Assembly: GCA_022791975.1 (NCBI GenBank)
Contig: JAAWAC010000014.1
Coordinates: forward strand, 1 to 64,000
Direction: 5' to 3'
DNA length: 64,000 nucleotides
Source: Lachnospiraceae bacterium
Lineage (GTDB): Bacteria > Bacillota > Clostridia > Lachnospirales > Lachnospiraceae
Shown: positions 35,179 to 58,053 of the stretch, piece after piece
Numbering within the stretch: the first letter of the stretch is position 1
Layout: each line of letters starts with the position of its first letter
Notes under the pieces: generated by a model
Databases searched by the model: none
What the model saw: only the letters and a program-made list of their open reading frames with translations
What the model was told of the DNA's origin: nothing
Made by a program: the position numbers and the translations under genes

Positions 35179-36252
35179 TTATATCCGCATACGCCGTCCC
35201 GTATACACCAAGTTTAAGTTCCTCTGGTTGTAGAGAAAATACAAGGTTGTCAAATTTTCCCCTAGGTAACCTATATACCGATCCGCCCGCTCCCAACCCC
35301 TGGGCTCACTGAGCTCCTCCGTCCGCTCCAAAATGGGAAACAGCCAGTCACAATATTCCCGAAAAACCTTCTTTTGGGCAACCAACATATTGTGATTCAA
35401 GAAAAATTTTCCATAAAACAGCTCCGGCAAATCCCTGGCATATTCTGGGGCCTGCTCCTGTAAGGCCTGCACCATAGCCGCCCAATCCCCCTCTTTGAGA
35501 TAATACTCATGGTGTGTCCAGATATTGGGGTAATAGATAGCCGGATAAGACAACACTGCATCCACCTTGTTCTCCCGTAGGCGATACAAGTCTTCTTCTG
35601 TAATATCCAACATCCGCCGGTAATGATATAACCCCAGATATTCCGCTGTCCCGTGCTTTCCAATCCAATAGGTAGAAGTAAGCTCGCTGTAATTCCCGTT
35701 TTTCCGGGAAATATTCTCTCCCTGATTATCTTTAAGCTGCGCCACAGAGCTCTCTGTAAGGGCTGCTCCAGCCTGAATGGGATGCATCCAAGTGGCAGGC
35801 TCCCACTGCTCCTTTAGAGGCTTATCCCCATGAAATTTTGACACGTAGACAGCCAAATCCGCCTTTTCTGTTCCTTTTTTCAAAGAGTGCAAAAAAGGCA
35901 GCTCCTCCACCTCCTGATAATATCGCTCCATCAGGGCTGCCTCCAGCTTTGCATTTATGGGAATATAGTGGAGCATTCCCCGCTTTTCCAACTCTGCCCC
36001 GATTTCCCGATGATAATTATCTTGGACTGCCAGCAGTATTTTCACTTGCTTTTTGGAAAAATCTTTTAGCTCCATCACAGGAATCCCGTCAATTTCCGCC
36101 CGGTTTCCCACCCGGCTTGTAACCAGAAAGGCGATTACCCGACACTGGGGATACAGAGCCCTTATAGCGTGATAGACACTCATAGCCACCATACGGGCAC
36201 CGTATATGGCAATCTCTTCTCCATTCTCCAATTCCAGCTTCTCTATCTGCAT
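35179..36252 (-). CDS. DUF4422 glycosyltransferase with N-terminal Rossmann-like module
   Basis: This 357-residue protein carries an IYGARMVAMSVYHAI glycine-poor Rossmann-like module in its first ~105 residues. It is followed by the DUF4422 domain seen in polysaccharide loci (YVSKFHGDKPL, GKHGTAEYLGLYHYRRML). DUF4422 proteins are treated as glycosyltransferases, but no activity is established to my knowledge. The N-terminal module is of the same kind as that in seven neighbouring proteins. Last gene of the island; GGAAAGGAC precedes its ATG. Confidence 0.75.
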   Translation of the reverse strand: MQIEKLELENGEEIAIYGARMVAMSVYHAIRALYPQCRVIAFLVTSRVGNRAEIDGIPVMELKDFSKKQVKILLAVQDNYHREIGAELEKRGMLHYIPINAKLEAALMERYYQEVEELPFLHSLKKGTEKADLAVYVSKFHGDKPLKEQWEPATWMHPIQAGAALTESSVAQLKDNQGENISRKNGNYSELTSTYWIGKHGTAEYLGLYHYRRMLDITEEDLYRLRENKVDAVLSYPAIYYPNIWTHHEYYLKEGDWAAMVQALQEQAPEYARDLPELFYGKFFLNHNMLVAQKKVFREYCDWLFPILERTEELSEPRGWERADRYIGYLGENLTTLYFLYNQRNLNLVYTGRRMRI

Positions 36253-36407
36253 CCGTCTCGTCCTTTCCTTCTTTTTTCTGATATGCCACCTGACATTTTT
36301 CTGATATTGTGCCTTTGTTTTCCCTTCTCTTGACAGGGCACACAGTCAGGAAAGAGCAGGTGTGCACCGTTCTGCTATGCTGTACACCAGTCAGATTATG
36401 GCTATTT
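36253..36407. other. Spacer with a 12-bp direct repeat
   Basis: TTTTTCTGATAT occurs at 36273-36284 and 36296-36307, about two helical turns apart, just upstream of the DUF4422 gene. This could be a binding site for a regulator or part of a local promoter. No gene is seen here. Confidence 0.45.
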
Positions 36408-37457
36408 TCATGTGGTAAGAAAGCTCTCTATGGTTCTCTTAAATCCCTGCTCCAGGGTATATTGGGGGTTCCAGCCCAGCTCTTCTAGTTTTTTAATGGA
36501 AAATCGGCTCTGCCGTTTATTGGGGTCCTCCAGATACACCGTATCATGATTTGCGTACCGGACCTTAAGGTTTCTCTCCGGATATAAGCCAGCCACAAGC
36601 TCTGCCAGCCCCCGGATAGAAATCTGGCATTCTGGATTGGCCACGTTGTAGACCTCTCCTGGTTTTCCCTCCAGAAGTACCTTAAAGTAGGCTAGGGCAG
36701 CATCATAAAGGTAGCAGAAGGTGCGAACCCCCAAACCGTCACTTTTCATTACCAGGTCCTCCCTGCGGATCACGTTGGATACAAAGCCGGCAAATACCCG
36801 AAAGTCCCGCTCCAAATCCATGGTGGGGCCATAGGTATGACAGGGACGGACCACCTTGGCCGCTACCTGATGCTGATGGTTGTAGGCTTTGCAGAGATTC
36901 TCCCCCAGCCGCTTGCTCTCTCCATAGCAGCTCCTAACGTCCATGGGATTTAAATAACCGCAGTCCTCCTCCTCAATAATCTCTTTTTCTAGCTTTCCAT
37001 AAATTTCCCCACTGCTAAAATATAGATACCCCCTGCAATTTTTTTCTCTGGCCAGCTCCAACGTCTGACGGGTGCCTAAGACATTGGGCATAATCACCCC
37101 TACCGGATTTGTTCCAAAATACTGAGAGCCAGAAGGGCTGGCCCCATGGATAATATAGTCCAGATCTCCCTCCATAGAAATTTCCTCAGTCACATCTCTT
37201 ATAAGCAGGTGAAAGTATTCTTTTTGGGAATATTTTCCAAATTTATCCAGTGCTGTCTGCCGGTTTCGACATAAAGCTTTGATCTGGATTTGGTAATCCT
37301 GATATTCGTTGAGATAGATCAGCATCCATATTAGGTAGGAGGGCAGCATACCACAGGCTCCCGTTATGAGGATGCTGGTGTTTTGAAGACGAGACCAGGG
37401 GATGATGGGTTCTTTGAATAAGCTTTTGCAATCTTCTAAAATAATTTTGTTTGTCAT
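36408..37457 (-). CDS. NAD-dependent sugar epimerase/dehydratase
   Basis: This 349-residue extended SDR has the NAD motif ILITGACGMLPSYL (GxxGxxx, with the third Gly replaced) and the active-site YGESK with an upstream FSSGEIYG. It most likely modifies an NDP-sugar for the island's glycan, as an epimerase or decarboxylase; the exact reaction is not readable. It lies 15 bp after the stop of the upstream GT2 gene. Confidence 0.82.
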   Translation of the reverse strand: MTNKIILEDCKSLFKEPIIPWSRLQNTSILITGACGMLPSYLIWMLIYLNEYQDYQIQIKALCRNRQTALDKFGKYSQKEYFHLLIRDVTEEISMEGDLDYIIHGASPSGSQYFGTNPVGVIMPNVLGTRQTLELAREKNCRGYLYFSSGEIYGKLEKEIIEEEDCGYLNPMDVRSCYGESKRLGENLCKAYNHQHQVAAKVVRPCHTYGPTMDLERDFRVFAGFVSNVIRREDLVMKSDGLGVRTFCYLYDAALAYFKVLLEGKPGEVYNVANPECQISIRGLAELVAGLYPERNLKVRYANHDTVYLEDPNKRQSRFSIKKLEELGWNPQYTLEQGFKRTIESFLTT

Positions 37458-37472
37458 AAGGGTGTCGTCCTC

Positions 37473-38687
37473 TCAAAATTTGATTTTGTTGAGCCCAAAA
37501 GCCATAAGAGACTCTCTACTCTTTACCAGCTCTTCGTCCAGGATTGCCACTTTATTGTTTCCATACTTCATAGAAAGTTCCCTGTAGAGCTCTTTTCTAG
37601 GTTTTGCAAAGCTTACAGCCACAACAATATAAGCAAAGGTTGTCTGCTCTATTACATTCGGATTTTCTACTGGTAAGCCAAACTCTTGCAGTTGTCTGTA
37701 ATTTCTGTCTACCCACCGTATAACATTACAAAAGCCACTTTCTTTTAAATACCTATATAACCGTTGACCGTATGTACCAGCACCATACAAAACAATATCA
37801 GCACCCTTTTTTATCTGGGGAAAGGGAAATAAATACTCTAAGCTTTCAAACCCACGGTATAATCCATCTGCCCGCGGAATCATCAAAAACAACACATAAT
37901 CTGTCCACTGACTACGCAAGTCATAAATATCCCGGTAGGTCTCCAGCTGTTGTTTCACGGTCTCGTACAAGACCAGGAATCGATGCCTTTCCACCTCTAT
38001 AGCATCCTTCTGTTTTACCATAGTGCCCGTACTCTGCCGATAATGATAGAAGCATTTCCCCATAATATAAATGCTTTTTGCATTTAATATGCACGGGTAC
38101 ACACAGGCCGCGTCCTCCCCCATTCTGATTGCGCGATCTACTTTATTTTGATACTTGTAGAGATTCTCCCGTCTAAACAATTTATCCCAAAGTCCGGGAA
38201 AAATCCCCCATTCAAAAAAATTTTCATTCACGATCATTTTGGGAAATACATCACGGACTAGTGACTGTCTATCATAACGTCCCTTCGGTATCCCGTGATA
38301 TACAGCTCTGGAAACATCCCCAGTATCCTCAAACCTTCCGGACATTACAATATCCACTTGCTCCTGCTGCATTGTCTTGTACATCTCTTCATACATCGCA
38401 GGCTCTATCCAATCGTCCGCATCTACAAATGCTATGTATTCCCCTCTGGAGGCATTTATCCCGTCGATTCTTGCGCTGACAAGTCCCTTATTTTCATTAT
38501 GGATTACCCGAATCCGCTGATCTTGCTTTCGAAACTTCTCACAGATATCATAAGAGCGATCCGTTGAACCGTCATTTACCAAAATGATTTCTAACTCTGT
38601 ATATGTCTGCCTACAAACACTGCGCACACATTGATCTAAGTATTCTTCTGCATTATAAACAGGAATAATCACACTAATCATTCGCAT
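37473..38687 (-). CDS. GT2 glycosyltransferase with C-terminal Rossmann-like module (A)
   Basis: This 404-residue protein has an N-terminal GT-A domain (ISVIIPVYNAEEYL, LVNDGSTDRS, FVDADDW). An all-helical middle is followed by a C-terminal module beginning ADIVLYGAGTYGQRLYRYL. The GT domain transfers a sugar from an NDP donor; the added module is shared across the island. It overlaps the upstream GT2 gene by 14 bp. No transmembrane segment is seen, so it acts on the cytoplasmic side. Confidence 0.88.
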   Translation of the reverse strand: MRMISVIIPVYNAEEYLDQCVRSVCRQTYTELEIILVNDGSTDRSYDICEKFRKQDQRIRVIHNENKGLVSARIDGINASRGEYIAFVDADDWIEPAMYEEMYKTMQQEQVDIVMSGRFEDTGDVSRAVYHGIPKGRYDRQSLVRDVFPKMIVNENFFEWGIFPGLWDKLFRRENLYKYQNKVDRAIRMGEDAACVYPCILNAKSIYIMGKCFYHYRQSTGTMVKQKDAIEVERHRFLVLYETVKQQLETYRDIYDLRSQWTDYVLFLMIPRADGLYRGFESLEYLFPFPQIKKGADIVLYGAGTYGQRLYRYLKESGFCNVIRWVDRNYRQLQEFGLPVENPNVIEQTTFAYIVVAVSFAKPRKELYRELSMKYGNNKVAILDEELVKSRESLMAFGLNKIKF

Positions 38688-40038
38688 ATTTCTCCTTCCA
38701 TGCTTTAATTAAAATATGCTTCAGAAAAACATCATAATGATTACATATGAGGATCCTCTTTTCATTCACAGATAAATCCATCAGCTGTTCCTTCATTTCC
38801 TGAAAATGGGCCATATTGGCAATTACAAACCATGCATGGGGGTATTTATTAACAGCCAGCCTAGGCTGCAATATGGGAATATACCTTTCCGTTTTTCCCC
38901 ATAAATCTTCTGCATTGTCTATATAGGCTGCAACCTTTCTGCCTGTCTCTTCTAAATAAAGAGCAACCAGCCTCCCAAGATTCCCACTTCCAAATATAAT
39001 AACCTCCTTTGTTCCATCTATTTGTTCCATGCTTTTCTTCATCTGTGCAATTATCATGTCACTTTCATCTATATAATTTTTAAATGCTTCCTTTGAGATT
39101 TTTATCTGTTCCAATGTACATTTTTCCTTTGGTTGCAGCTCCTTTTCCTGATATTTCTCCGAAGATAGCTCTCCACAGATATCCTCATACATTATTTCTA
39201 TGTAGTCTTTTCTGCGCTCTACAGACAAATTATCATAAAACCAAAGATGCCCGTTTATTTTCCATGCCAAATAGATCTCTTTGTATTCTTCAAACAGGCC
39301 ATCCTCTTTCAATCGCTTCTTTAACAGTGCATACTCTTCTATCAACATCCTTAATTTTTGCGGGCTGTTTACAGAAGAATTGGGATTATCCATGCGATAA
39401 CAATAAAAGGACTTCTTTAGAAGCATGACACGCTCTGCTTTTATAGCAGTCAAAAAGGTGAAGGCTATGTCCTGGTATGCCGCTCCTTTTGTTTCATTCA
39501 TAAAAATTTTATTGTCAAGCAAAAAATCTCGCCGGTATAAGCCGCTCCAAAAGCCATTGACCCCAAGTTTTAACAGACGCCTATCATGTTTTGCATTTAT
39601 AACCGTATGATACATAGAATCTACATTGGATAAAGTAAAGGGAAAATAAATCTCTTTTCCATCCGCTTCACAGAAACGGTTTACATTCGCCTTTAAAAAA
39701 TCCAACTGATACTTCTTAACAATCTTGTATTGTTCTTCATACATATGAGGCAGCAAATAATCATCTGACTCACAGATTCCAATATATTTCCCCTTTGCCT
39801 CTCTTAAGCCTGTATTAAACTGCAACCCTACTCCAGATGAACAGGGAATAACTCGTATCCTTCCATCCATTTGTGCAAATTTCTTTATCATATCTAACGT
39901 GCCGTCCGTACTTCCGCCATCTATAATTAAGATTTCTATTTCCTGTAGCGTCTGCATTCTCACGCTCTGTATACATTTTTCTATATGTGTTGCGTCATTA
40001 AGCACATAAATTAACACAGATACTTTTATATTTTTCAT
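38674..40038 (-). CDS. GT2 glycosyltransferase with C-terminal Rossmann-like module (B)
   Basis: This 454-residue protein has the GT-A signatures VSVLIYVLNDATHIEKC, IIDGGSTDGT and ESDDYLLPHM, and the C-terminal module VIIFGSGNLGRLVALYLEE. It is AT-rich like its neighbours and unlike the flanking chromosome. Its end overlaps the next GT2 gene, indicating coupled translation. Donor and acceptor are unknown. Confidence 0.88.
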   Translation of the reverse strand: MKNIKVSVLIYVLNDATHIEKCIQSVRMQTLQEIEILIIDGGSTDGTLDMIKKFAQMDGRIRVIPCSSGVGLQFNTGLREAKGKYIGICESDDYLLPHMYEEQYKIVKKYQLDFLKANVNRFCEADGKEIYFPFTLSNVDSMYHTVINAKHDRRLLKLGVNGFWSGLYRRDFLLDNKIFMNETKGAAYQDIAFTFLTAIKAERVMLLKKSFYCYRMDNPNSSVNSPQKLRMLIEEYALLKKRLKEDGLFEEYKEIYLAWKINGHLWFYDNLSVERRKDYIEIMYEDICGELSSEKYQEKELQPKEKCTLEQIKISKEAFKNYIDESDMIIAQMKKSMEQIDGTKEVIIFGSGNLGRLVALYLEETGRKVAAYIDNAEDLWGKTERYIPILQPRLAVNKYPHAWFVIANMAHFQEMKEQLMDLSVNEKRILICNHYDVFLKHILIKAWKEKYAND

Positions 40039-40064
40039 TTCTTATTCTTCTTTTCTTCATATTT

Positions 40065-41438
40065 TTATAACATACATTCTTCCAGTCTCAAGGGAAGCGA
40101 TAAGTAAGAAGCCAGGTCAAAAACTTTGATATCCGGATTCTTTTCCTTCACAATCTCCACAGTTTCCGGATAATAAGAGGCATTTGTAACTAAAATAAAC
40201 TGGGATTGTTTACTGGCGGCTTCATCAAATAATCCAACTGCATGTCCACCTTCTAATATTTGCCCCTTTTTATTGCTGTCCTTATCATAGATATTCTTTA
40301 TAAAACTCTTGTCTCCATATACAAATAAAAAAGCCTTTCCTCTGTCACCTGCTCCCCAAATCCCTGTGGAATATGAGTTCTTTGTGATATAGTCAAATAG
40401 CTTTTCTATCTTTTCCTCATTTTCCTCATAAGTTCGAACATATTTGTCAAATTCTGTAATTGGTAAGTTTGCTGCCTCATATTCCTGACATGTTGAAATT
40501 CTATCAATAAAGTATTTATGAAATGCGTTGAAAAAATCTTGCCCATGACTAATATGTAGATTTAGATCATCTAAAATAAACTCCCTTAACAAATAAAACA
40601 TTTCCTTGCGGTTTGCCTCATCCAGAGTCTGGTAGTTCCAATATAAAAATTCACAGGCCCAGTTATAAAAGCTTTGTTCATACTCCCAGAACAAGCTTTG
40701 TTCTATCAAGAAAGCTTTCAATCTTGACAAATATAAAAAACAGCATTTCCAAGATAAGCTTCGCGTATTAGATAGGCTGGCCGAAAGATGAGTTCTATGA
40801 TGTATAAAAAACTGGTCAACAACTGTAACTTTTTTTGCACATGCCAATGCTGCATGTACAAAAAAGGCATCATTTGTGGTTCTCATTTCCTGAAAATACA
40901 ATTTATTATTTATGATAAATTCCCTTCTGAACAATTTATCCCAAGCCCAACCATTCCAAAGACTAAAGAGAATCGATTTTACTTCCTTTGGTGAAAAGCT
41001 CTCTCTGGTTGCCAAACTTTTAATAATAACATGTGCATACGGATAGGGAATATTTTTTCGAACATTTGTATGAAATTCGTCCTCTTTCATAATACAAATA
41101 TCCGCTTTCCCTTTCTCTGCCTTTTCATATGCAGTTTGTAACATATCCGCTTCAAATATATCATCCGCATCCAGAAAAATAATATATTTCCCACATGCTT
41201 CCTTCAGCCCCTGGTTCCGCGCTGTACCTGCATAGCAATTTGTTTTATTTGTAATGATCCTGATTCTACTATCGCATTCTCTATATTTTTTCAAGATTGC
41301 GGTCGTTGCATCCACAGACGCATCATCTATACATATAATCTCCAATTCTTTTAGGGTTTGTGTGATAATGCTGTTTAAACATTCGCATAAATATTTTTCA
41401 CCATTATATACAGTAACCACCACGGAGACCTTTATCAT
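40065..41438 (-). CDS. GT2 glycosyltransferase with C-terminal Rossmann-like module (C)
   Basis: This 457-residue GT-A enzyme has VSVVVTVYNGEKYL, IDDASVDATT and FLDADDIFEAD. The C-terminal module reads STGIWGAGDRGKAFLFV. The track's first codon is a TTG; the ATG at 41438 has AGAGGA 7 bases upstream and is preferred. It begins 59 bp after the FkbM methyltransferase stop. Confidence 0.88.
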   Translation of the reverse strand: MIKVSVVVTVYNGEKYLCECLNSIITQTLKELEIICIDDASVDATTAILKKYRECDSRIRIITNKTNCYAGTARNQGLKEACGKYIIFLDADDIFEADMLQTAYEKAEKGKADICIMKEDEFHTNVRKNIPYPYAHVIIKSLATRESFSPKEVKSILFSLWNGWAWDKLFRREFIINNKLYFQEMRTTNDAFFVHAALACAKKVTVVDQFFIHHRTHLSASLSNTRSLSWKCCFLYLSRLKAFLIEQSLFWEYEQSFYNWACEFLYWNYQTLDEANRKEMFYLLREFILDDLNLHISHGQDFFNAFHKYFIDRISTCQEYEAANLPITEFDKYVRTYEENEEKIEKLFDYITKNSYSTGIWGAGDRGKAFLFVYGDKSFIKNIYDKDSNKKGQILEGGHAVGLFDEAASKQSQFILVTNASYYPETVEIVKEKNPDIKVFDLASYLSLPLRLEECML

Positions 41439-41497
41439 TCCCAATTCCTCTGCCTTCTTTTAGACTTCCATGCACTTCCACATATAGCATTTTTCAG

Positions 41498-42565
41498 CTA
41501 GACATACGCATATAATACTGTCTCACATATATCGGATCGGTAATGTCTGATATAAAACTTATACTCTGGAACCAACTCCAAAAGATATAGCGGTAATTCT
41601 ATAATATCCTCAGGTTTATGGTAGAGACTGATAGCCAGTTTTGGACGTTCTCTTTTAATCACCATGCCAGCTCCTTTTAATGCCTTCAACTCTCCGCCTT
41701 CTATATCCATTTTAATGAATGTAACTGGGTCATTTTGTATTATGTTATCCATGTCTATGGCCTTCACAACATTTCCATTATCCTGCTTATTCTGTTCGAC
41801 TCTCGACCCGGCCTTATCCTCCTTAAAAAACAGTCTATCTTCTTTCTCCCATGCCGCGAAAGCTTTTACATACACATTTTTAAGTCCTCTTTCTTTACAT
41901 GAAGCTGCAATATGTCTGCACCGTTCTTCAGACGGCTCCATAGCAATGATTTTCAAATAGTTTCTATCTGTCCATTGGACAAAATCCCATATTGTCTCGC
42001 CCAAATATGCGCCCACATCCACAAAAATTTCATTTTCATCTGGCTTAAATACATCAAAATACTGCTTCTTTTCTGTCCTGGCCTGCAAATGATTATACCT
42101 GGGATTCAAAATATTCTGTTCCGGAAAATTATTAGACACTAAATCCCTATACATCTCTCTTTTATAGGCTCCTGATCCAATAACTACAGAATAATGGGAA
42201 TATTTTTTGACAAGGGAATCAAAAGAAATTACTTCAACCCCCTCAACTCGACTCCCCACTTTATCTGTATCCCTGTCGCAAAAAAAGGCAGGAGGATGGC
42301 CACAAAGATCCAATACTCTCTTTGTTTCTTTTCCGTCATGTCCGCATCCCCAGACAATAATTCCTTCTCCTTGCGTTTTTTCCAGAAAACGCTCCAATTC
42401 AGGGCAGATCCAATTCTTTTCCACAGTATCCACCGCTTTATAAAATTGTTTCTTATCTCTGGTAATACTATAATGAAGCCTGGCATTAAACAATAAAACA
42501 GACGTCTGGTCCTGTAACACACTTTCTATTTTATTTATGTTTTTACTGATTCTTGGATACTCCAT
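41498..42565 (-). CDS. FkbM-family methyltransferase with N-terminal Rossmann-like module
   Basis: This 355-residue protein carries the island's module first (GIIVWGCGHDGKETKRVLD, about residues 65-155). An FkbM SAM-methyltransferase domain follows (FVDVGAYLGETIWDF, IKMDIEGGELKALKGA). FkbM enzymes O-methylate sugars or polyketides, so it probably caps or decorates the glycan. The ATG at 42565 is preferred because GAAGGG lies 9 bases upstream. Confidence 0.85.
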   Translation of the reverse strand: MEYPRISKNINKIESVLQDQTSVLLFNARLHYSITRDKKQFYKAVDTVEKNWICPELERFLEKTQGEGIIVWGCGHDGKETKRVLDLCGHPPAFFCDRDTDKVGSRVEGVEVISFDSLVKKYSHYSVVIGSGAYKREMYRDLVSNNFPEQNILNPRYNHLQARTEKKQYFDVFKPDENEIFVDVGAYLGETIWDFVQWTDRNYLKIIAMEPSEERCRHIAASCKERGLKNVYVKAFAAWEKEDRLFFKEDKAGSRVEQNKQDNGNVVKAIDMDNIIQNDPVTFIKMDIEGGELKALKGAGMVIKRERPKLAISLYHKPEDIIELPLYLLELVPEYKFYIRHYRSDICETVLYAYV

Positions 42566-42583
42566 GGTTGCCATCCCTTCTTT

Positions 42584-44011
42584 TTACCTCATATATTCCA
42601 AAAAATATCTATATTTTGTAAAAATATCCCCATTTAACTTTTCATAAAATGTATAAACTGGAATGTTCTGTCTGATTTTTCTAACATTCCGGAGCATTTC
42701 CTGTTCATAGATAAAACTGGAAATGATAATTAAATCAAAATTTTGATCCATTTTCTGATACTGAATTATTTTTTTATCTCTGTAAATACCATGGTCTTTT
42801 TGAGAATCAATGAAAATCATGTCACAGGTAATCTTACCAATCAGATTCTCGTAAATTGTCAGCAATCCCTCTGTATGCTTCCCCATGCCGTAGATTCCTA
42901 CTTTACAGTTTTCCCTATTCAGAGGCAATTTTTTCAGCAGTTCTAAATAAAGCTCTCTCTGCAATGCTGCTATTTGCCATATTTGAGAATTTATTATCTG
43001 CCGTTGATCTAATTCCCAACAGATAATCCGATGGTAATTATCCATCACTCTCGCTAAGATTGCCAGATCGCAAGACTCGATATCTAATTGTAGTTTTTTT
43101 AACAATTCAAAATACTTTCCAATTAAATATTTTAAAAGCCCTCTGGCTTCCTCCTCCAGAACAATGCCGTCATCTATACACAACTGATAATTATCCAAAA
43201 TTATGGTACAGTGATCACAAACTAATGCCATAAGAATTTCTCGATACATCTCCAGTTTGTAATATGTATTTTTACATATTTTATCCCAAATAAGCAAAAC
43301 GACCTTGATATAATCTACAAACTTTCGTTCAGTATATCTGCCTGTTATGATCGAGTGTTCCCGATACCTTCTCTGATAAAGTTTTTCTGATATGTGTTTA
43401 ACATTCTCTCCCTGACACAAAAACATAAAGGAAAAATAATTGTCCTCGAAGTATAGTCCTTCTGGAAATTTTACCCCCACTTCTGTGATCATTTTCCTTT
43501 TGTATGCCGCCATACATGCAGAAACCACATAATTTCTTGGATAACATTTAGCAAAATACTCCCATCCTGTGCCCCTGAAATCACTTACCTCTGTATTACT
43601 GCGATCATAACGATTGCTGGTAATTTGTGCACACCCATCTTCATAATGAATATCTGCATCAAAATAAACAGCATCATAAGGAAAAACCTGCATTTGGTTT
43701 TTCAGGATTTTTACCGTATCTAATCTTAAATAATCATCTGAATCAAGAAACATAACATAGTCACATGAAGCAGCACAAATGCCCCTATTGCGTGCAGCGG
43801 AGAGTCCTGCATTTTTTTGATTGATTAATTTAAAATAAGAATATTCCTTAACATATCTCTCACAGATAGATAAGCTTTGGTCTGTAGAACCATCGTTAAT
43901 TAATATCACCTCATCAAAAAGAATCTGCTGCTTTATAATACTGTCTAAACATTGCACAAGATATTTTTCAACATTATAAACAGGTACAATGGCTGTTATA
44001 CTTATATCCAT
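42584..44011 (-). CDS. GT2 glycosyltransferase with C-terminal Rossmann-like module (D)
   Basis: This 475-residue GT-A enzyme has ITAIVPVYNVEKYLVQC, LINDGSTDQS and FLDSDDYLRLD. The C-terminal module begins CKVGIYGMGKHTEGLLTIY and is more diverged (GxGxxT) than the others. The ATG at 44011 has GGAG 9 bases upstream and replaces the track start. One of five GT2 enzymes in tandem. Confidence 0.87.
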   Translation of the reverse strand: MDISITAIVPVYNVEKYLVQCLDSIIKQQILFDEVILINDGSTDQSLSICERYVKEYSYFKLINQKNAGLSAARNRGICAASCDYVMFLDSDDYLRLDTVKILKNQMQVFPYDAVYFDADIHYEDGCAQITSNRYDRSNTEVSDFRGTGWEYFAKCYPRNYVVSACMAAYKRKMITEVGVKFPEGLYFEDNYFSFMFLCQGENVKHISEKLYQRRYREHSIITGRYTERKFVDYIKVVLLIWDKICKNTYYKLEMYREILMALVCDHCTIILDNYQLCIDDGIVLEEEARGLLKYLIGKYFELLKKLQLDIESCDLAILARVMDNYHRIICWELDQRQIINSQIWQIAALQRELYLELLKKLPLNRENCKVGIYGMGKHTEGLLTIYENLIGKITCDMIFIDSQKDHGIYRDKKIIQYQKMDQNFDLIIISSFIYEQEMLRNVRKIRQNIPVYTFYEKLNGDIFTKYRYFLEYMR

Positions 44012-44033
44012 CTGTATTCTCTCCATCTCAGGA

Positions 44034-45347
44034 TTATATATTGGAAAATTCTATTTCTTTCATAAGGCTATAAACTTCCTTGTTTTCTTCCCGCAATACA
44101 TAAACAATATCTTCATACCATACAGGATTGGGAACTATAATTACCTCTACCTTATCTTTTATCATTTCATAGCTGTATATTCGGCAACCGTCAATCTCCT
44201 TTTCCCATTTACGCTGATCCATATCAATCACATAGTCTATGCTTTTTCCTCTTTTTGCCAGCATATTTAGCACACTTTTTCCAGCTCCTCCAGCCCCCCA
44301 CAATGCAATCTTTTTATCACCAAAACTACTAATAAACTTTACAATAGCATCCGACTGAATGGCAGCGGAATCAATATCCTCGTTATTATCTCTCAACAAT
44401 TCATATAGTTTCCAGTTCATTTCACTATTCATATGTTTCTGCTGCAATTTATCCATCATCCACTTTTCCCAGTAAACAGCTCTCAACTCATCTATCATTT
44501 TTTCATAGACTTCCGTATTCATTCCATATTGTATATCTCTCAGCTCTTTTAATAACTTATTATAAAAACTGATTTTGAGTTGACCATGATCCTGCTTGTT
44601 TCTTTCCAGGAATTCATATACTGCATCCATAGCTTCCAAATAATAGTTATGACGTTTGTTTCTTTGACTTGACAAGCTCCTTTTTCCACATGATTTTCTA
44701 TAGTGTAATAAGATTTTATCAACAAATACAATTCTATCTGCCTGCATCAGAGATGCCATGGAAAAATAGACATCGTTTGCATTCGGTATATTCTGAAAAC
44801 GAATCTCCGCTCCATCAATTCTCAATATATCTCTATGTATCAACTTGTCCCAGGGACTATTTCCCCCTATTTGAAACAGATAGTTTTCTTCTTTCTTTAC
44901 CTCCATAACCGGATAGCTTTTTATTAATAATTGGGGGACCCAATTCATTATTTTATAATTTACTTTAGAATCATCATCCAGGTAATTATAATAGCAGCAG
45001 CATATATCCGCATTTTCCCTTTGCGCTTTATCAAGCATTGCCTCTATCATGTTCGGTTCAAATATATCATCTGCATCAAGAAAAATGAGCCATTGTCCAT
45101 TTGCATACTCTAAACCAAAATTCCTCGAACAAGCAGCTCCCTTGTTGATAGAATTCCTAATAATTTTTAATCTTCTGTCCTCTCTGTATTCATTTAAAAT
45201 GCCTTCTGTACTGTCAGTACATCCATCGCATATGTAAATAATCTCCAAACATTGATAAGTTTGGCGAAGAACGCTCTCAATATTTTCCCGTAAAAAATCC
45301 GCCCCATTATACACAGGAATTATTATTGAAACTAAAATATTATTCAT
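44034..45347 (-). CDS. GT2 glycosyltransferase with C-terminal Rossmann-like module (E)
   Basis: This 437-residue GT-A enzyme has VSIIIPVYNGADFL, ICDGCTDSTEG and FLDADDIFEPN. The C-terminal module IALWGAGGAGKSVLNMLA has the best-kept glycine pattern of the set. It lies 40 bp after the stand-alone module gene. Confidence 0.88.
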   Translation of the reverse strand: MNNILVSIIIPVYNGADFLRENIESVLRQTYQCLEIIYICDGCTDSTEGILNEYREDRRLKIIRNSINKGAACSRNFGLEYANGQWLIFLDADDIFEPNMIEAMLDKAQRENADICCCYYNYLDDDSKVNYKIMNWVPQLLIKSYPVMEVKKEENYLFQIGGNSPWDKLIHRDILRIDGAEIRFQNIPNANDVYFSMASLMQADRIVFVDKILLHYRKSCGKRSLSSQRNKRHNYYLEAMDAVYEFLERNKQDHGQLKISFYNKLLKELRDIQYGMNTEVYEKMIDELRAVYWEKWMMDKLQQKHMNSEMNWKLYELLRDNNEDIDSAAIQSDAIVKFISSFGDKKIALWGAGGAGKSVLNMLAKRGKSIDYVIDMDQRKWEKEIDGCRIYSYEMIKDKVEVIIVPNPVWYEDIVYVLREENKEVYSLMKEIEFSNI

Positions 45348-45387
45348 TTAGTTGCTCACTTTCTGATATAGTTTCCTTAAGCTTTAA

Positions 45388-45861
45388 TCACATTTTATAA
45401 ATGATATCTGCAAGTGATATAACTGGACAGCCAAATCTTATTTTCAACTCTTCCTCCAGCTCTTCAAAATAATAAATAGCTGTAACTACAACCGCATCAG
45501 CAGGGTCCATTTTATCATTTAATCCTTTTATCTCTTTTCCATCCAATATTTGATTTTTATTCTGATCTACCAAATATTTTATTTCAAATTCTTCGCTTTT
45601 TAATTGTTGATAAAGATTCTTTCCAATGTCCCCCACTCCGTATATAATTATATTGTGAATTCCTTTTTCTTTTAAATAATCCGCAATTTTTTTCTCCTTG
45701 TGTTCATTCTGAAGCCATCTATTCATTAACAAAAACATTTCGAAATGTTTATCTGACATTTCTGATACATTTTTGATTTTTCTCTTAAACCTTTTAAAAC
45801 ATATGCCTGTACTCAGAACCGCTCCAAGTATTACCCCCGAAATCCCCCACATTATCTTCAT
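45388..45861 (-). CDS. Membrane-anchored stand-alone Rossmann-like module
   Basis: This 157-residue protein has an N-terminal hydrophobic segment (MWGISGVILGAVLSTGI, residues 4-20), a basic stretch and a coiled helix. It then has the island's module alone (NIIIYGVGDIGKNLYQQL to the C-terminus). No glycosyltransferase domain is attached. It may be a membrane docking or regulatory subunit for the enzymes that carry the same module, or a degraded enzyme; the first is inference. I know no named family for the whole protein. Confidence 0.7.
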   Translation of the reverse strand: MKIMWGISGVILGAVLSTGICFKRFKRKIKNVSEMSDKHFEMFLLMNRWLQNEHKEKKIADYLKEKGIHNIIIYGVGDIGKNLYQQLKSEEFEIKYLVDQNKNQILDGKEIKGLNDKMDPADAVVVTAIYYFEELEEELKIRFGCPVISLADIIYKM

Positions 45862-45880: not shown

Positions 45881-46942
45881 TCATAAGAAACGAAACATCT
45901 TTCTCCATGCCTTTATGCTTTCTTCTTTATTAATTTTTTTATAAATTTGATTTTTGTTGAGTGCTCTGTCTTTCTCTGTAAATTCCACCAATTTTTTAAT
46001 ATTTATTTTTTTAATATCTGCTGTATTTGAAACTATACATTCCAAATCTTTAGTAAAATAATCCCACAGTAAAGATTCTCGATTCAAATATATTTTGCAC
46101 CCCATCCGCATTTGCATTAGAATATTTCCCAACGCCTGCTGTCTTTTCATATCAAATATTGCTATATCCATATTATATAGAAATCTGCAATACTCGTCTA
46201 AGGACATAAAATTCTGAACAGGAATAAACTTATCTCCAAATATTTCTTTTCCGTATGAAACCACCCGTTCTGCATATTCCATATTACCATAGGATAAGGG
46301 AATGAAAATATTGATATTTTCCTCCTTGAATCTGCTTAAATTTTTTAAAACTTCAAAATGATTATTTGTAAGTGTCGCAGAATTTCCTATCTGTATGTTA
46401 ATAGACTTTTTGCATGGCTTTGGTATACTCACAGCTTTGCTAATACCTTCTATTTCCTTAGCACTATAATACATTGCACAAAAATGCTTTACTTTTAAAT
46501 GATATTGTTTTTTTAAATCTGTATAATCCTGTGGAATAATCGTTGCCACAGCTCGACATTTTCTGACAACATAAACCTTTGCTCTTCTTTTCCTCTTGTC
46601 CTCTGGTAGCTTTTCTTTATCTCCACCCCAAAAATATAGGATCAATTTTTTTAACAATTCTTTATGCAGATAGAAGTACTCAATAATACAATCTTCAAAT
46701 ACTCCATGATAAATTATCAGGTCATATCTCTGTAGTTCATTTTCTGTACTCTTTTTATTCATTTTTATTTCAATTCTGGGATAATATTTTATGTTATCCG
46801 GCTTTAGATACGTACAACGCTCATCTATATAAGCTTCCCCAAATACCCAAAATGTGTGATCCTCCTCCGGAATATCTCTCATCAAATAAATGAACTCTTC
46901 TGTAAATTTTTCTGTCCTAAATATATGTAATATTCTTTTCAT
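45881..46942 (-). CDS. WecF-like (Fuc4NAc transferase family) glycosyltransferase
   Basis: This 353-residue protein resembles TDP-Fuc4NAc:lipid II Fuc4NAc transferases (GT56). The IQIGNSATLTNNHFEVL donor-site segment, IPLSYGNMEYAERV and a KRQQALGNILMQMRMG segment match the WecF pattern. The donor is probably a dTDP- or UDP-4-amino-6-deoxy sugar, which fits the DegT aminotransferase encoded further upstream. It is 19 bp from the module-only gene. Confidence 0.75.
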   Translation of the reverse strand: MKRILHIFRTEKFTEEFIYLMRDIPEEDHTFWVFGEAYIDERCTYLKPDNIKYYPRIEIKMNKKSTENELQRYDLIIYHGVFEDCIIEYFYLHKELLKKLILYFWGGDKEKLPEDKRKRRAKVYVVRKCRAVATIIPQDYTDLKKQYHLKVKHFCAMYYSAKEIEGISKAVSIPKPCKKSINIQIGNSATLTNNHFEVLKNLSRFKEENINIFIPLSYGNMEYAERVVSYGKEIFGDKFIPVQNFMSLDEYCRFLYNMDIAIFDMKRQQALGNILMQMRMGCKIYLNRESLLWDYFTKDLECIVSNTADIKKINIKKLVEFTEKDRALNKNQIYKKINKEESIKAWRKMFRFL

Positions 46943-46992: not shown

Positions 46993-48276
46993 TTACTTAA
47001 TACAGGAAAATATCCTTTCTCCATCTGTTTTTATATCTTTTATATCATGTATCTTAGAATCTTCTCCGTCATCCTTCAGCAAATATGTTAACAAAAGTGG
47101 CACTTCTCTCTCTTCAATGACACTTCCCTTTTGTCTCACCCAATTTAATATAGCCTCTGTGTTTTCATTATATAATTTATAAATTGTCTCTCTATATTGG
47201 CTTTCATTCACTTTTGTATGTATATAGAAAGCAACATTTGTCTGGTAATCAAATACCATTAAAGGAGCATCAGCTATATCTGATGCATAGATAATTTTGG
47301 GTCCATATATAAAACTGGATTGATATCTTCCCGGTCCCCATTTCATAATTTCTGTATATTCATGCAATTTCGTATTAAGCTGGACATTTCCAGTTTCGAT
47401 ATTAACAGCAACAAATTCCTGTGCTAAAAACGGAGCCAAAACTAAAAATTGTTCTATCACATCCACAACCATATACATTGGCTCTTTGATTTCTTTCCAC
47501 TCTATATTCAAAGCTATTTCTTTTTTTTCAAAGGTATCCTTATTTATTAATAAAACAGACTTATTTTTGCCCCTTGATAAAAAAATCATCCACTCCTTAT
47601 AGGTTCTTACAAAACCAAGTTTTTTTTCATTATCTTTCCACAATATAAATCTGAATTTTTCCGTTCTGGTATTAAAAATCACCAATTCTTCACTGTCATA
47701 CGGATAAAACCATATGTCATCCCCAACCAAACATGCATCTGCAAAATTAATTTTTCCGTCTTTAAATGCCACTCTATCTCTTAATTCTGAATACTCTATA
47801 ACTTGATTTGTCAACATATCTACCCGCAAAAACATATTATAGCCTAAGGGTACAAGCCAAAATTCCGAACTTCCGTTTTTATAACAACATTTAAACTCCC
47901 ATGTGATATTTCCTTTGTTATCCCTAATAGGCTCTCCATTTTCAGGCAAGTGAATAACAACCTTTTCTAATGTTTTTATATTAATTTTGACTATATCTTT
48001 CCCTGCGTGCGTTGGGATCATCCAAATAGCATCTTCAAAAAAAATTGCTTGGTTATGCAGATACCTGCTTTTAATCTCATTTTCAAAAATATCTAAAAAT
48101 TCACAAATTCCAGTCTTTAAATCCATTTTGTAAAATCCATTTGATAGCCATGAAGAAAAATATAACTCGTCTCCTACGATACATCCAGCTAAAAATGAAA
48201 TTCTACTTCCATAAATATTTTCATTTATAATGCCTTGATTACTCAGTTTTTTTAACTGCATTTTTTGCCACTCCAT
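46993..48276 (-). CDS. Unrecognised beta-propeller-like protein
   Basis: This 427-residue protein is of no family I recognise. It shows repeated blocks of the kind GDELYFSSWLSNGFYKMDLKTG, DAIWMIPTHAGKDIVKINIKT, DDIWFYPYDSEELVIFNTRT, about 50-60 residues apart, each ending in an N-x-x-T-like turn. This is what a six- or seven-bladed beta-propeller looks like. No signal peptide or membrane segment, so probably cytoplasmic. It could be a scaffold or binding protein for the glycan enzymes. It lies 50 bp from the WecF-like gene. Confidence 0.6.
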   Translation of the reverse strand: MEWQKMQLKKLSNQGIINENIYGSRISFLAGCIVGDELYFSSWLSNGFYKMDLKTGICEFLDIFENEIKSRYLHNQAIFFEDAIWMIPTHAGKDIVKINIKTLEKVVIHLPENGEPIRDNKGNITWEFKCCYKNGSSEFWLVPLGYNMFLRVDMLTNQVIEYSELRDRVAFKDGKINFADACLVGDDIWFYPYDSEELVIFNTRTEKFRFILWKDNEKKLGFVRTYKEWMIFLSRGKNKSVLLINKDTFEKKEIALNIEWKEIKEPMYMVVDVIEQFLVLAPFLAQEFVAVNIETGNVQLNTKLHEYTEIMKWGPGRYQSSFIYGPKIIYASDIADAPLMVFDYQTNVAFYIHTKVNESQYRETIYKLYNENTEAILNWVRQKGSVIEEREVPLLLTYLLKDDGEDSKIHDIKDIKTDGERIFSCIK

Positions 48277-48413: not shown

Positions 48414-49619
48414 TCAATTCCAAATTTTTCTAGTCAGCCTCTCCCTTAAATCATACCCATCCCAAACAAATCCAAACTCCATGGTCTCCCCGATCTTCAC
48501 CACCCGGTCTATCCCCTTTACTCCGGATTCAGCCAACGGTAAAACCTTCATTTCATCTCCCAAAACCGCTATAGTCTGCAGCTTCTCATTGCAAATCGGA
48601 ACCAACTCCATGATATCCCCAAGCTCATACTCATAGAAGACTCCTGAGTTCCCCCGATATTCCTGTATCCGAGGAGTCATCTTCTCCAATTCTATTCGTA
48701 CAATCCGGTTATCCTTCATCCGAATCACATGGATTCCCTCTATCGTTGCCGCCGCAAGGCAGCTGTTTGTCAGCTTATCCACATATTGTATCGGTCGGAA
48801 TGTATACTTTTTCTCCACTGTACCCCAGAACTTCTCCCAGAAAATTTCTTTCGCCTCTTCTATCCTTTCGTGCTCTCCCATCCAGCAGACCAGTCTCGGC
48901 GAAGTACAGGCATTTTGATCTGTAAAATAGGTGTCATTATAGAAATCTAGTGCAAGCCTCTCTTTGTCTTTTATATTCAAATATTCCTCCGCATCTACGA
49001 TACAGATGGAATACCGATCCGCAAAGGTAATCTCGCCTGCTCTCGGCGGAAGCTCTGACTTCCGAATCTCCTCTATAGCGGCATCTCCTCCCCAGATTAC
49101 CCTTACATTACAAATGGAAGAAAAATAATCATTGATCTCCTTATTCCTCGCATACCGCAGAAAGACTATGTAATCGCTCCACTTCTTATAAACTTCCTCT
49201 TGCCCCAAGGCTTCCGATATGGCCCGGTTAATCAGCTCCGTCTGCCGGAATTCCCTGGATGGCAGCCGCACAATGCTCGCATTTCCCAGTACAAATCCAA
49301 CTGCAAAGGAATAGGCATAATTCACTGCCACATTTGACGGCGCGATGTGAAATAGCACTCCACGCCCCATTCGAAGCCTGTGATCGGAAAGAAATTCTCT
49401 CTTTTCTTTCTCCATATTTGCTCTTCTTATCCAGAAAGCGAAAGTTGCCACATCTGAATACGTCTTTGCCTCTTTATCTGACAGCAGCCTTTTGGACACT
49501 TCATTTAAAAAGGCAATCCGCTCCTCCTCAAAGGGTTTGCCCGCAGGAAGCTTTGGCATTTTTTCCACAATCTTTTCGTCGCCTATATGAAATTGAAGCT
49601 CCTTAAAATTTAGCTCCAT
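48414..49619 (-). CDS. luxC: LuxC-type acyl-CoA/acyl-protein reductase
   Basis: This ~401-residue protein is of the LuxC family (PF05893), which reduces an activated acyl group to an aldehyde with NADPH. The nucleophilic Cys lies in TDQNACTSPR. It is directly downstream of LuxE with a 17-bp overlap if the ATG at 49619 is used (the track ORF starts 30 bp earlier). In luminous bacteria the pair makes fatty aldehyde for luciferase; no luciferase is here. In this glycan island it more likely makes an aldehyde for transfer or transamination. The 137 bp after the stop hold no gene. Confidence 0.85.
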   Translation of the reverse strand: MELNFKELQFHIGDEKIVEKMPKLPAGKPFEEERIAFLNEVSKRLLSDKEAKTYSDVATFAFWIRRANMEKEKREFLSDHRLRMGRGVLFHIAPSNVAVNYAYSFAVGFVLGNASIVRLPSREFRQTELINRAISEALGQEEVYKKWSDYIVFLRYARNKEINDYFSSICNVRVIWGGDAAIEEIRKSELPPRAGEITFADRYSICIVDAEEYLNIKDKERLALDFYNDTYFTDQNACTSPRLVCWMGEHERIEEAKEIFWEKFWGTVEKKYTFRPIQYVDKLTNSCLAAATIEGIHVIRMKDNRIVRIELEKMTPRIQEYRGNSGVFYEYELGDIMELVPICNEKLQTIAVLGDEMKVLPLAESGVKGIDRVVKIGETMEFGFVWDGYDLRERLTRKIWN

Positions 49620-50697
49620 AGGTATCGCTGCACCCCCTGATTTCTGCATTTTTCAGTCTTCCATGTACAGAGAAATACTTTCCCTTTCTTCCGCAGGGAC
49701 AATCATCCTCTCCCAGAAGCACTCCTTCGTCCTCTGTCAAAAGAGAATGCCCCGGATAGGATTCCGGAATAGCCGACACCACTTGAAGGATTCCTTTTTC
49801 CCCCATCCTACAGACTGAAAAGTCCTCCGGACGTCGGACGATCACATCAGAAAAAATACTGGCATGAAAATGTCCGTATTCACACTGCATATAGATACAC
49901 CCTGTCTGCTCTACCATTCCGTAATAGTCGTAAATCTTATGCAAACCGCACGCTTCCTGCAAGCTGCCGCGAAACTCTTGACAGGAAATAGCTTCCCCTT
50001 TAAGCTTCTTCCAGCCTCCTCCGTGAATGAGGATTCCATTCGACAAATCCCATACAATCCCTTTCTGCCTGAACTTTTTAAACTCCTTATAAAAATGCTG
50101 CCAAATCATAAAGGTAAAGCCGAAGAGAAAGATCTGCTCTCCCTTGTGCCTCTCTAAAAAGGCGCTGACCCCTTCTACATCTAACTGCATCTCATCATTC
50201 AAAGCGTATAGTTTATCTCTTCCAAAGATGGAGAATCCCAGTATCCCTGCTCCTCTGGCGCTGAACATAGCCCTGTTTTTTATAACGGAGGGACAGTCGA
50301 TAATCAGCATGGGCATACGGGCGCTTCCTGTAAAGGAGGACACCAGTTTAACCAAAGTTTTCTGCTGATAGCCTGCCGTCTTTCGATCCACATAGATGCG
50401 AGACACACGCTGGCCGCTGGTTCCGGAGGATGTCATGGTTTTTACAACCTCCTCCTTCGGAACACTTCGCAGTTCCATCTCCTTAAACAGGCGGACCGGA
50501 AGGAAGGGAAGCTCATAATAGGATTCTGTCTTACCGATTTCTATCCCAAAGGCATCCACGATTCTTTTGTATGTCTCACACGTCTCATAGTGCTGTTCAG
50601 ATAGGCTTATCAGCCTTCTGCTTAAAAGCTCCTGCTTTTTCTCTTTTTCAAGGGAATAAGGCTCCAGCTCCAGCATAGCTTCATAATTTTGTTCCAT
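49603..50697 (-). CDS. luxE: LuxE-type acyl-protein synthetase
   Basis: This 364-residue adenylate-forming enzyme of the LuxE family (PF04443) activates a carboxylic acid with ATP and passes it to LuxC. The ATP loop is TSSGTSGQRVSRIYVD. The Cys-rich C-terminal part (CPCGRKGKYFSVHGRL) and a Cys close to the end (GCSDTYG) resemble the acyl-acceptor region of the family. It lies 16 bp after the acyl-ligase gene and overlaps luxC. Confidence 0.85.
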   Translation of the reverse strand: MEQNYEAMLELEPYSLEKEKKQELLSRRLISLSEQHYETCETYKRIVDAFGIEIGKTESYYELPFLPVRLFKEMELRSVPKEEVVKTMTSSGTSGQRVSRIYVDRKTAGYQQKTLVKLVSSFTGSARMPMLIIDCPSVIKNRAMFSARGAGILGFSIFGRDKLYALNDEMQLDVEGVSAFLERHKGEQIFLFGFTFMIWQHFYKEFKKFRQKGIVWDLSNGILIHGGGWKKLKGEAISCQEFRGSLQEACGLHKIYDYYGMVEQTGCIYMQCEYGHFHASIFSDVIVRRPEDFSVCRMGEKGILQVVSAIPESYPGHSLLTEDEGVLLGEDDCPCGRKGKYFSVHGRLKNAEIRGCSDTYGAKF

Positions 50698-50713
50698 TCT
50701 CCTGTTTTTCCTG

Positions 50714-52126
50714 CTATTCTTCTATATATTTTCCAAATTCTTGATACAACACCTTTCCGGAAGCGTTTCTCGGTATTTCTGGAATTACATGGACTGCAAA
50801 AGCAATGCTGTTAAGTCCTGTTTTTTGAGAAAGAAAGGCTCGGATGTCCTCTTTTAAGCCTTCCTCTGTAATAAAAAGGACCAGCTTATCATCCCGACCA
50901 GCGCTGGCACAATCTATATTTCCAAACTCAGCTTTTACCAGTCGATCCACCCCATCCAGATTTACCCGATTTCCGAATATTTTTAAGAAGCGCTTCTTTC
51001 TTCCCACAATATAATAATATCCGTCCGAATCAAACCGGGCCATGTCTCCTGTTTCCAGGCGACCGTGTCTTTCATCCCCTTTTGCCAGATCCTCCCCGCA
51101 TTCGGCATATCCGAGAGTAACATTGGGTCCCTCATACACCAGCTCCCCTGCCGTATCGGGCTGCCGAATTTCGTTTCCGTCTGCATCTATAACAGAGAAA
51201 CGACCGCCCGGTATGGCAATCCCCATACTTCCATATTTTCCCAGAGACTTATCATAGGGAAGATAGGACATTCTTGCAGTGGCCTCTGCCTGGCCGTACA
51301 TAACGTAAAAACGTTTCCCTTTCTTTTGTGCATACTCCGCAAATCTTTTATGCAACTCCGGCTGCAGCTTTCCCCCTGCCTGTGTCATGCTTCTAAGGGA
51401 AGGAAGATCCATGCGGTAAAACCGCAGTTTGTCCAGCATTTCGTATGTATACGGGACTCCTCCAAAGGAAGTGGCTTCCACTTCTCTGAAAAATCTCCAG
51501 AATTCTTTCTGCATCAAACCTTTCTCTGTGAATAAAATGGTGGCGCCTACCAGCAAATGACTGTTGATAATTGACAAACCATAGGTATAATTCATAGGAA
51601 GCGTGGTAATGGGCCGCTCTGTCTCATTCAATTCCAGATACTGCACGATTGACTGAGCATTTGATACTACATTCTCATAACTTTGGCGTACCAGCTTGGG
51701 GCTTCCGGTGGAACCAGATGTTGTCAAAAGCAGACACAATTTCTCGTTCAGTCTGTATACTCTCTGATATTCCGTTTTTAGGAGAACATATGCAAAAACT
51801 TCATACTCCACAGAATAATTTTCAAACGCATTCCGAAGTTTTACAGGTACCCACAAGTAGTCCGGCTGATAAGTTTTGATTAACTGCTCCAATAAATCTT
51901 TGTCCATATCTTCTGCAAGTAACAAGGGAACCACGTGATGGTTGATACATGTGGTATAGCCTATCAAAGCACCTATGGTATTGGAGCATAATATAAATGT
52001 AAGACAACGTTCTTTTAATCTTTCTACAAGCCTACAATTTTCAAGGAATAATTCGTGATAACTTATTTGATTTTTATGTTCATCCACAGCGGCTATGCTG
52101 TCCGCATATTCCTCAAACCTCCACAT
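50714..52126 (-). CDS. AMP-binding acyl ligase (ANL superfamily)
   Basis: This 470-residue adenylate-forming enzyme has the P-loop LLTTSGSTGSPKLV, the YGQAEATARMSY core, the LETGDMARFDSDGYYYIVGR hinge and the C-terminal Lys in RNASGKVLYQEF. It probably loads a carboxylic acid on the ACP encoded 28 bp upstream. Together with LuxE there are two acid-activating enzymes in tandem, which is unusual. The substrate is unknown. Confidence 0.85.
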   Translation of the reverse strand: MWRFEEYADSIAAVDEHKNQISYHELFLENCRLVERLKERCLTFILCSNTIGALIGYTTCINHHVVPLLLAEDMDKDLLEQLIKTYQPDYLWVPVKLRNAFENYSVEYEVFAYVLLKTEYQRVYRLNEKLCLLLTTSGSTGSPKLVRQSYENVVSNAQSIVQYLELNETERPITTLPMNYTYGLSIINSHLLVGATILFTEKGLMQKEFWRFFREVEATSFGGVPYTYEMLDKLRFYRMDLPSLRSMTQAGGKLQPELHKRFAEYAQKKGKRFYVMYGQAEATARMSYLPYDKSLGKYGSMGIAIPGGRFSVIDADGNEIRQPDTAGELVYEGPNVTLGYAECGEDLAKGDERHGRLETGDMARFDSDGYYYIVGRKKRFLKIFGNRVNLDGVDRLVKAEFGNIDCASAGRDDKLVLFITEEGLKEDIRAFLSQKTGLNSIAFAVHVIPEIPRNASGKVLYQEFGKYIEE

Positions 52127-53188: not shown

Positions 53189-53833
53189 TTACCGAAAAAC
53201 TTTTGTTCCATTCTTATACTTCATTACCCTTGCTGGATTCCCTAGCGCAATTACATTTTCCGGAATATCTCTTAAAACTGTAGAGCCCATACCAATAATC
53301 GAATTTTTCCCTATCTTAATTCCTTCCTTTACTGAAACATTCATACCAATATATGTGCCTTCCCCCACCTCACAATGGCCTCCAAGAGTAGCATTTGGTG
53401 CAATTTGACAATTCCGCCGAATAATACAATCATGCCCCACTATCGTTCCCGGCTCAATACATGTATTTTCTTCTATCAATGTGTCACTGGAAATAAAAGA
53501 TTGTGCATGAACAATAAGCCCTTCCTCCAGATTCGCAGATGGGCTTATCCAGGCCATAGGGTGCAAAACTTTAGCAAGTGGATACTCTTTTTCTTTCACC
53601 TTATGGCATAACGCTATTTTGTGCTCTGGTTCTCCCAATGCAATCACTATTTCTGCGGTATCCTTATCATAAATTTGCACAAAACTTTTAAAAGGCATTC
53701 TTTCTATACCTTTAAATACCCCTACTTCTACCATATCATCTATAAATACAATTTTTTCCCAAATATTTTGCTGCTCAGCAATCTCCCTTACCTCACATCC
53801 TGAACCACCGGACCCATAAATTCCCAAAATCAT
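53189..53833 (-). CDS. NeuD-family acyltransferase
   Basis: This 214-residue protein has an N-terminal nucleotide-binding-like domain (ILGIYGSGGSGCEVREIA) and C-terminal hexapeptide repeats (ANLEEGLIVHAQSFIS, HCEVGEGTYIG). NeuD/PglD-type enzymes transfer acetyl from acetyl-CoA to an amino- or hydroxyl-sugar. With the DegT aminotransferase next door, N-acylation of an aminosugar is the simplest role. The acyl donor could instead be the ACP-bound group. AT-rich. Confidence 0.82.
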   Translation of the reverse strand: MILGIYGSGGSGCEVREIAEQQNIWEKIVFIDDMVEVGVFKGIERMPFKSFVQIYDKDTAEIVIALGEPEHKIALCHKVKEKEYPLAKVLHPMAWISPSANLEEGLIVHAQSFISSDTLIEENTCIEPGTIVGHDCIIRRNCQIAPNATLGGHCEVGEGTYIGMNVSVKEGIKIGKNSIIGMGSTVLRDIPENVIALGNPARVMKYKNGTKVFR

Positions 53834-56320: not shown

Positions 56321-56400
56321 ACTCTCTGCCCCTCTCTGATAATCATCTCCAATAGCTATTGCCACTGGCGACTCTCCATCCACCTTTCAGATATTCCAGC

Positions 56401-57117: not shown

Positions 57118-57187
57118 CCTCGGCACCTCCAACTTCTCTCACATCCTGCCACATGCACGAAAAAACAAAAGAGACGAATCGCCCAAT

Positions 57188-57880: not shown

Positions 57881-57956
57881 TCCATTCTTCCTTTGCAGAA
57901 CTTTTTTCAACTCCTCTACTGACCAAATTCCACAAGGGTCCTTTCTTTCACCATAT

Positions 57957-58053
57957 TATTTATAAAATATAATATATAAACTTTATTCTATGTCTCATTC
58001 TAACATTATCAACCATGACAAAGCAACATATTTATAAAATATAATATATAAAC
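57957..58053. repeat. 25-bp AT-only direct repeat (two copies)
   Basis: TATTTATAAAATATAATATATAAAC occurs identically (25 bases) at 57957-57981 and 58029-58053, 72 bp apart. It lies in the 396-bp divergent spacer upstream of the glycan island and the C39 gene. Each copy includes TATAAT-like hexamers, so they may be duplicated promoters of the island. No gene is seen in the spacer. Confidence 0.75.

Follow-up and report, generated by a model that had tools for sequence, protein, structure and literature searches.

Eight neighbouring proteins of a Lachnospiraceae bacterium carry a homologous add-on domain (hereafter, the module). The module is not peculiar to this genome: in related bacteria it recurs on a wide range of sugar-building enzymes that are not related to each other. 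The eight proteins are encoded between positions 35179 and 45861 of the window, as we call the whole 64,000-nucleotide stretch of DNA that was analysed. This interval holds nine genes, all on the minus strand, which code for a DUF4422 protein, an SDR epimerase, five GT2 enzymes (GT_A to GT_E, in order of window position), an FkbM methyltransferase, and a stand-alone protein of 157 residues. The module was found in every product except the epimerase (36408-37457), which has a Rossmann fold of its own. Module coordinates are given in Table 1; since open reading frames were called mechanically, some N-termini are approximate. No description of the module was found in the literature searched.

Table 1. 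Modules and the predicted membrane segment in the interval, with core-profile scores, Pfam matches, and AlphaFold2 (AF2) model quality.
Feature	Position	Strand	Support
DUF4422 protein (gene 35179-36252), N-terminal module	35908..36252	-	35.6 bits, E 6.7e-10, not a seed; AF2 pLDDT 95.3, pTM 0.88
GT_A (GT2; gene 37473-38687), C-terminal module	37506..37796	-	53.3 bits; PglD_N 24.1 bits
GT_B (GT2; gene 38674-40038), C-terminal module	38734..39021	-	49.0 bits
GT_C (GT2; gene 40065-41444), C-terminal module	40107..40373	-	29.3 bits
FkbM methyltransferase (gene 41498-42574), N-terminal module	42086..42373	-	43.0 bits; FkbM domain by Pfam
GT_D (GT2; gene 42584-44026), C-terminal module, glycine loop shifted	42629..42913	-	30.5 bits, E 2.7e-8, not a seed
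GT_E (GT2; gene 44034-45347), C-terminal module	44049..44321	-	54.4 bits; CoA_binding 30.1 bits
Stand-alone protein (gene 45388-45861), module	45388..45663	-	64.5 bits; AF2 pLDDT 95.4, pTM 0.82
Stand-alone protein, predicted membrane helix and helical stalk, residues 2-54	45700..45858	-	AF2 one continuous helix, pLDDT 87-97

Homology of the eight modules

The relationship among the modules was evaluated with a 77-column core profile, whose seeds were six window modules (those of the DUF4422 protein and GT_D excluded) and stand-alone relatives. The profile was iterated on other genomes only, with the genome under study contributing nothing but seeds, and was then applied to the window. This fixed core was used instead of an earlier iterated profile, which had drifted to 190 columns. 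All eight proteins scored between 29 and 65 bits, while shuffled and reversed protein controls peaked at 9.9 bits, confirming the single shared module that the initial annotation had proposed. The coordinates of the profile matches likewise agree with the placement it had given, at the C-terminus of the five GT2 enzymes and of the stand-alone protein, and at the N-terminus of the FkbM and DUF4422 proteins. A profile-profile comparison of mixed-module and stand-alone alignments gave a probability of 99.8%. In pairwise phmmer comparisons of the window modules, six were linked above shuffled controls, and no such link was seen for DUF4422 and GT_D. Pairwise comparison of the BLAST type alone is thus too weak for these two modules.

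The sequence patterns by which the module had first been recognised hold in part. The strict motif [IVL][YWF]Gx[GR]xxG, originally assigned to every protein, is present in six of the eight; the loops of GT_D (IYGMGKHTEG) and DUF4422 (IYGARMVA) fall outside it. Eight window proteins contain the strict motif (two of them lie outside the eight-module set), compared to a mean of 0.29 proteins per window when the window open reading frames were shuffled. A D-rich strand follows in seven modules; the exception, DUF4422, reads FLVTS at this place. The [VI]V[AG] pattern fits its strand only loosely, the actual sequences being VVVTA, IVVAV, FVIAN, ILVTN, VVIGS, IIISS, IIVPN, and LLAVQ.

Predicted fold and known relatives

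Two of the eight modules, those of the stand-alone protein and of the DUF4422 N-terminus, were modelled with AlphaFold2 using natural alignments (scores in Table 1). Both have the same predicted fold, strand-helix-strand-strand-strand-helix-strand-helix, in the same order. The membrane anchor ascribed to the stand-alone protein is also supported by the model, in which a hydrophobic stretch and then a stalk are predicted to form one helix ahead of the module. Several positively charged residues soon after the hydrophobic stretch suggest that the module of this copy is cytosolic; across the stand-alone family, the charge pattern around the helix is ambiguous. Membrane-anchored stand-alone copies constitute a conserved family in its own right, with a nearly invariant Trp in the stalk (alignment A4).

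When the module was used in a profile search of the PDB, the best match was 3nkl, a FlaA1-type domain (6.3e-12) annotated as UDP-D-quinovosamine 4-dehydrogenase (FlaA1/PglF type). It was followed by 2g6t (5.7e-10), VioB (5.1e-8), Rex (1.1e-7), and WbaP chains (1.3e-5). A Foldseek search with the DUF4422 module retrieved Rex, 3nkl, 2g6t, and WbaP, with E-values all near 0.001-0.006; TM scores were 0.60 for 3nkl and 0.63 for 8t53 (WbaP), at E-values of 0.002-0.006. Matches to the stand-alone model were dominated by general Rossmann folds, none below E 0.001. Distant homology links the module to the Rossmann domains of FlaA1/WbaP, PglD/VioB, 2g6t, and Rex.

The profile search for a named family yielded scattered Pfam matches, and no one Pfam family spans the module. 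Scattered members are labelled PglD_N, CoA_binding, C2185-like_N, or Methyltransf_14, and most stand-alone copies receive no glycan-related family. Thus, the fold is known from solved relatives, but no single named family covers the module. The PF13727 domain (CoA_binding_3) of WbaP, a large monotopic phosphoglycosyl transferase, and the related domain of 3nkl are Rossmann-like and belong to a glycan pathway, and their membrane link is shared by the stand-alone copy. However, PF13727 comes with a four-helix bundle and a catalytic domain attached, whereas the module occurs on many unrelated enzymes or alone behind one helix, and no PF13727 match above the Pfam cut-off was obtained for the eight window proteins or for 137 module sequences. 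PglD_N (PF17836), the N-terminal domain of PglD/VioB/NeuD acetyltransferases, has the same strand-loop pattern as the module. Its cut-off of 23.4 bits was just exceeded by GT_A; GT_E (21.9 bits), GT_B, FkbM, and the stand-alone protein fell below it, DUF4422, GT_C, and GT_D were not listed, and 13 of 60 module samples matched weakly. Unlike PglD-type proteins, all eight proteins lack a hexapeptide acetyltransferase domain according to Pfam, and the real PglD-like protein of the window (53189-53833) scored only 9.3 bits with the module profile.

The CoA_binding match of GT_E was above the cut-off. The name of C2185-like_N (PF22674) presumably refers to C. acetobutylicum CAC2185, which we take to be 2g6t. 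This family was matched by 16 of 60 module samples, with some relatives over the cut-off; none of the eight window proteins reached this cut-off of 27 bits (best, GT_B with 13.2 bits). The C-methyltransferase C-terminal domain PF08484 scored over its cut-off on the module of a LicD protein, and the N-terminal part of the FkbM structure 2py6 matched the module weakly (E 0.015); each of these two domains has been described on a single enzyme family, while the module is found on many. The NAD-binding domain of Rex resembles the module in fold and glycine loop, but Rex is a DNA-binding redox regulator without a glycan link, whereas the module sits in glycan loci.

Partners, loci, and descent of the module

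The module was detected on 448 of 1,369 open reading frames across 78 loci, nearly all from Lachnospiraceae, as were the 69 loci fetched by the stand-alone query, a selection biased to sequences close to that query. It was N-terminal in 181 cases, C-terminal in 144, and alone in 112, and some proteins contain a tandem pair; a natural two-module protein is encoded at L114:14484-16163. At the BLAST level, over 80 groups of partner regions can be distinguished, and Pfam names at least 16 partner families: GT2, GT4, GT-D, Gly_transf_sug, WbsX, RgpF, TOD1, DUF4422, NKWYS, FkbM, Methyltransf_25, TylF, LicD, Radical_SAM, WcbI, and DUF268. Of 100 genomes from the same family, 15 gave a match to the stand-alone protein (E 0.001); across the order, with fused matches counted, 18 of 196 genomes did so, and beyond the order matches are rare.

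Modules are linked within loci. Among 53 full-length loci chosen by the stand-alone copy alone, fused modules were present in 52, and their median number was five, on four partner groups. In all 69 stand-alone-chosen loci, the module was carried by 86 of 149 GT2, 29 of 32 FkbM, 10 of 10 GT-D, and 23 of 71 GT4 proteins. In 40 control loci, which were drawn from the same family on the basis of a GT2 or FkbM protein, the corresponding counts were 0 of 117, 3 of 12, 0 of 2, and 0 of 33, but the controls were picked outside the module loci already fetched, so that 0 of 117 describes other loci without modules rather than a base rate and overstates the contrast. A rough genome-wide base rate is ca. 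2% of GT2 proteins (17 module-bearing GT2s in the module loci fetched from 60 genomes, out of ca. 750 GT2s in total), which is a lower bound. Several dense module clusters (loci L143, L144, L145/146, and L149-L152) contain no detectable stand-alone copy in the stretch read. A universal requirement for the stand-alone copy was therefore rejected; the anchor is at best optional and not an obligatory hub.

The nearest relative of a fused module was located on the same partner group in 68% of cases (10.6% expected) and in the same locus in 4.7% (1.4% expected). Similarity thus follows partner type and hardly locus, which indicates that each enzyme brought its own module and that loci collect enzymes of independent origin. 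Recent duplication within a locus was rejected, since best matches rarely share a locus. Module-bearing genes adjoin each other more often than expected; splitting of a fusion of adjacent C- and N-terminal modules was considered and rejected, because C-to-N and N-to-C neighbours were equally enriched. Modules that share a locus show no mutual matching, and there is thus no sign of a locus-specific pairing code, which counts against docking (see below).

Judging from its gene neighbourhood, the window cluster is probably a flagellin-glycosylation island, with a flagellin glycan as its product, because flagellar genes adjoin it. A FliD-like protein, a PilZ protein, and a lytic transglycosylase are encoded at 58000-64000, and the same contig continues past the window, to position 78766, with FlgM, FlgK, FlgL, FliW, CsrA, FliS, FliD, and a flagellin fragment, the start of the gene, at the contig end. 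Flagellin is also encoded on the contigs of module loci in nine other genomes, and about ten module contigs hold it. The notion that every module locus is flagellar was not supported: flagellin was present in only 3 of 69 stand-alone-selected stretches, and other surface glycans are therefore probably served too.

The same genome has a second glycan cluster (loci L036 and L037; contig C17, 5000-40000), in which two of the modules are stand-alone and about ten are fused; flagellar genes were not detected next to it. Several other genes of the window cluster deserve mention. The product of 45881-46942 closely resembles the WecF family of enterobacterial TDP-Fuc4NAc transferases, although its NCBIfam score of 243 bits stays under the equivalog cut-off. 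The adjacent 46993-48276 codes for a 427-residue protein without any Pfam match amid glycan genes. Inside the glycan cluster, genes for a LuxC-like acyl reductase, a LuxE-like acyl-protein synthetase, and an AMP-binding ligase (48414-52126) suggest a step that involves an activated acid or an aldehyde. A pair of neighbouring genes for IspD-like cytidylyltransferases (56401-57910) lies beside a gene for a CDP-glycerol-type phosphotransferase (55025-56383).

Possible functions of the module

The best explanation, which we hold tentatively and at somewhat less than even likelihood, is that the module is a Rossmann domain with a nucleotide pocket that serves docking or assembly, its copies pairing with each other and being optionally anchored in the membrane. 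The initial annotation had put forward a shared cofactor, an allosteric ligand, or a docking surface. Among these, docking is favoured by the presence of the module on at least 16 unrelated partner families in one kind of locus, by the linkage of modules within loci, by the tandem copies, and by the anchored stand-alone copy. The related domain of WbaP accounts for most of that protein's dimer interface (PMC10942596), and in Myxococcus EpsZ the same domain was modelled as a contact site of the activating partner EpsW (PMC12802240). By analogy with WbaP, a small Rossmann-like domain added at either end of cytosolic enzymes in glycan-assembly loci could provide plug-compatible docking, with module copies pairing with one another. 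Such pairing would gather the glycosyltransferases and tailoring enzymes of a locus into one assembly, which would be held at the inner membrane face where a stand-alone copy is present, and pairing may be gated or stabilised through the nucleotide pocket, which has been retained. A general assembly code, in which a dimerising Rossmann module exchangeable between families recruits locus enzymes to the membrane-anchored copy, perhaps under the control of uridine nucleotides, is possible but doubtful.

Conservation is highest in the ligand pocket. This suits a serious rival, though one that we consider less likely than docking, namely that the module is an allosteric sensor. By binding UMP, UDP, or an NDP-sugar, each copy would adjust the enzyme to which it is attached, and the pathway would slow down as a whole when nucleotide products accumulate; the stand-alone copy would then be a membrane-bound sensor or buffer. 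Of all modules, 98% keep the first loop glycine and 86% the acid that follows strand 2 (99% and 98%, respectively, in stand-alone copies). Such conservation of pocket residues fits a nucleotide-like ligand, which appears likely for most modules. The closest solved relatives include the FlaA1-type domain, VioB, and WbaP, and uridine-nucleotide sensing has already been proposed for the WbaP domain; UMP, UDP, and UTP stabilised this domain in soluble form, and UMP inhibits WbaP at an IC50 of 4.1 uM (PMC10942596). However, many partners (FkbM and TylF methyltransferases, radical SAM proteins, LicD) do not use NDP-sugars, a Lys replaces the second glycine of the loop in about one-third of stand-alone copies (alignment A4), and in a subclass of 44 modules V-S/T replaces the acid at the end of strand 2. 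This subclass is typical of DUF4422 and RgpF partners (L107, L110, L087, L125, and others) and includes the window DUF4422 protein, with V-T in place of D-N. The view of these modules as decayed pockets was rejected, as they form a coherent subclass. A nucleotide-like ligand seems doubtful for them, and their ligand, if any, should differ.

The inheritance of modules with enzyme type and the concentration of the stand-alone family in one order would be expected if the module were simply an old part of each enzyme, involved in acceptor binding or stability, and if a shared gene pool made loci look all-or-none. We regard this as improbable, since module-free members of these enzyme families exist elsewhere in the bacterial family, the partners come from unrelated families, and an enzyme-free stand-alone copy is conserved. 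A catalytic NAD(P)-dependent role, for example that of a sugar oxidoreductase, is very improbable: the GxGxxG loop and the acid are as in NAD-binding Rossmann folds and Rex is among the best matches, but the domain has only ~100 residues and no attached oxidoreductase catalytic domain, and only 188 of 458 modules have the complete G-x-G-x-x-G loop together with the acid.

A module that occurs on at least 16 enzyme families and in a copy with a predicted membrane anchor offers a direct genetic handle on how glycan enzymes of the cytosol stay together. If the docking interpretation is true, the module could be used as a ready-made connector for building glycosylation pathways.
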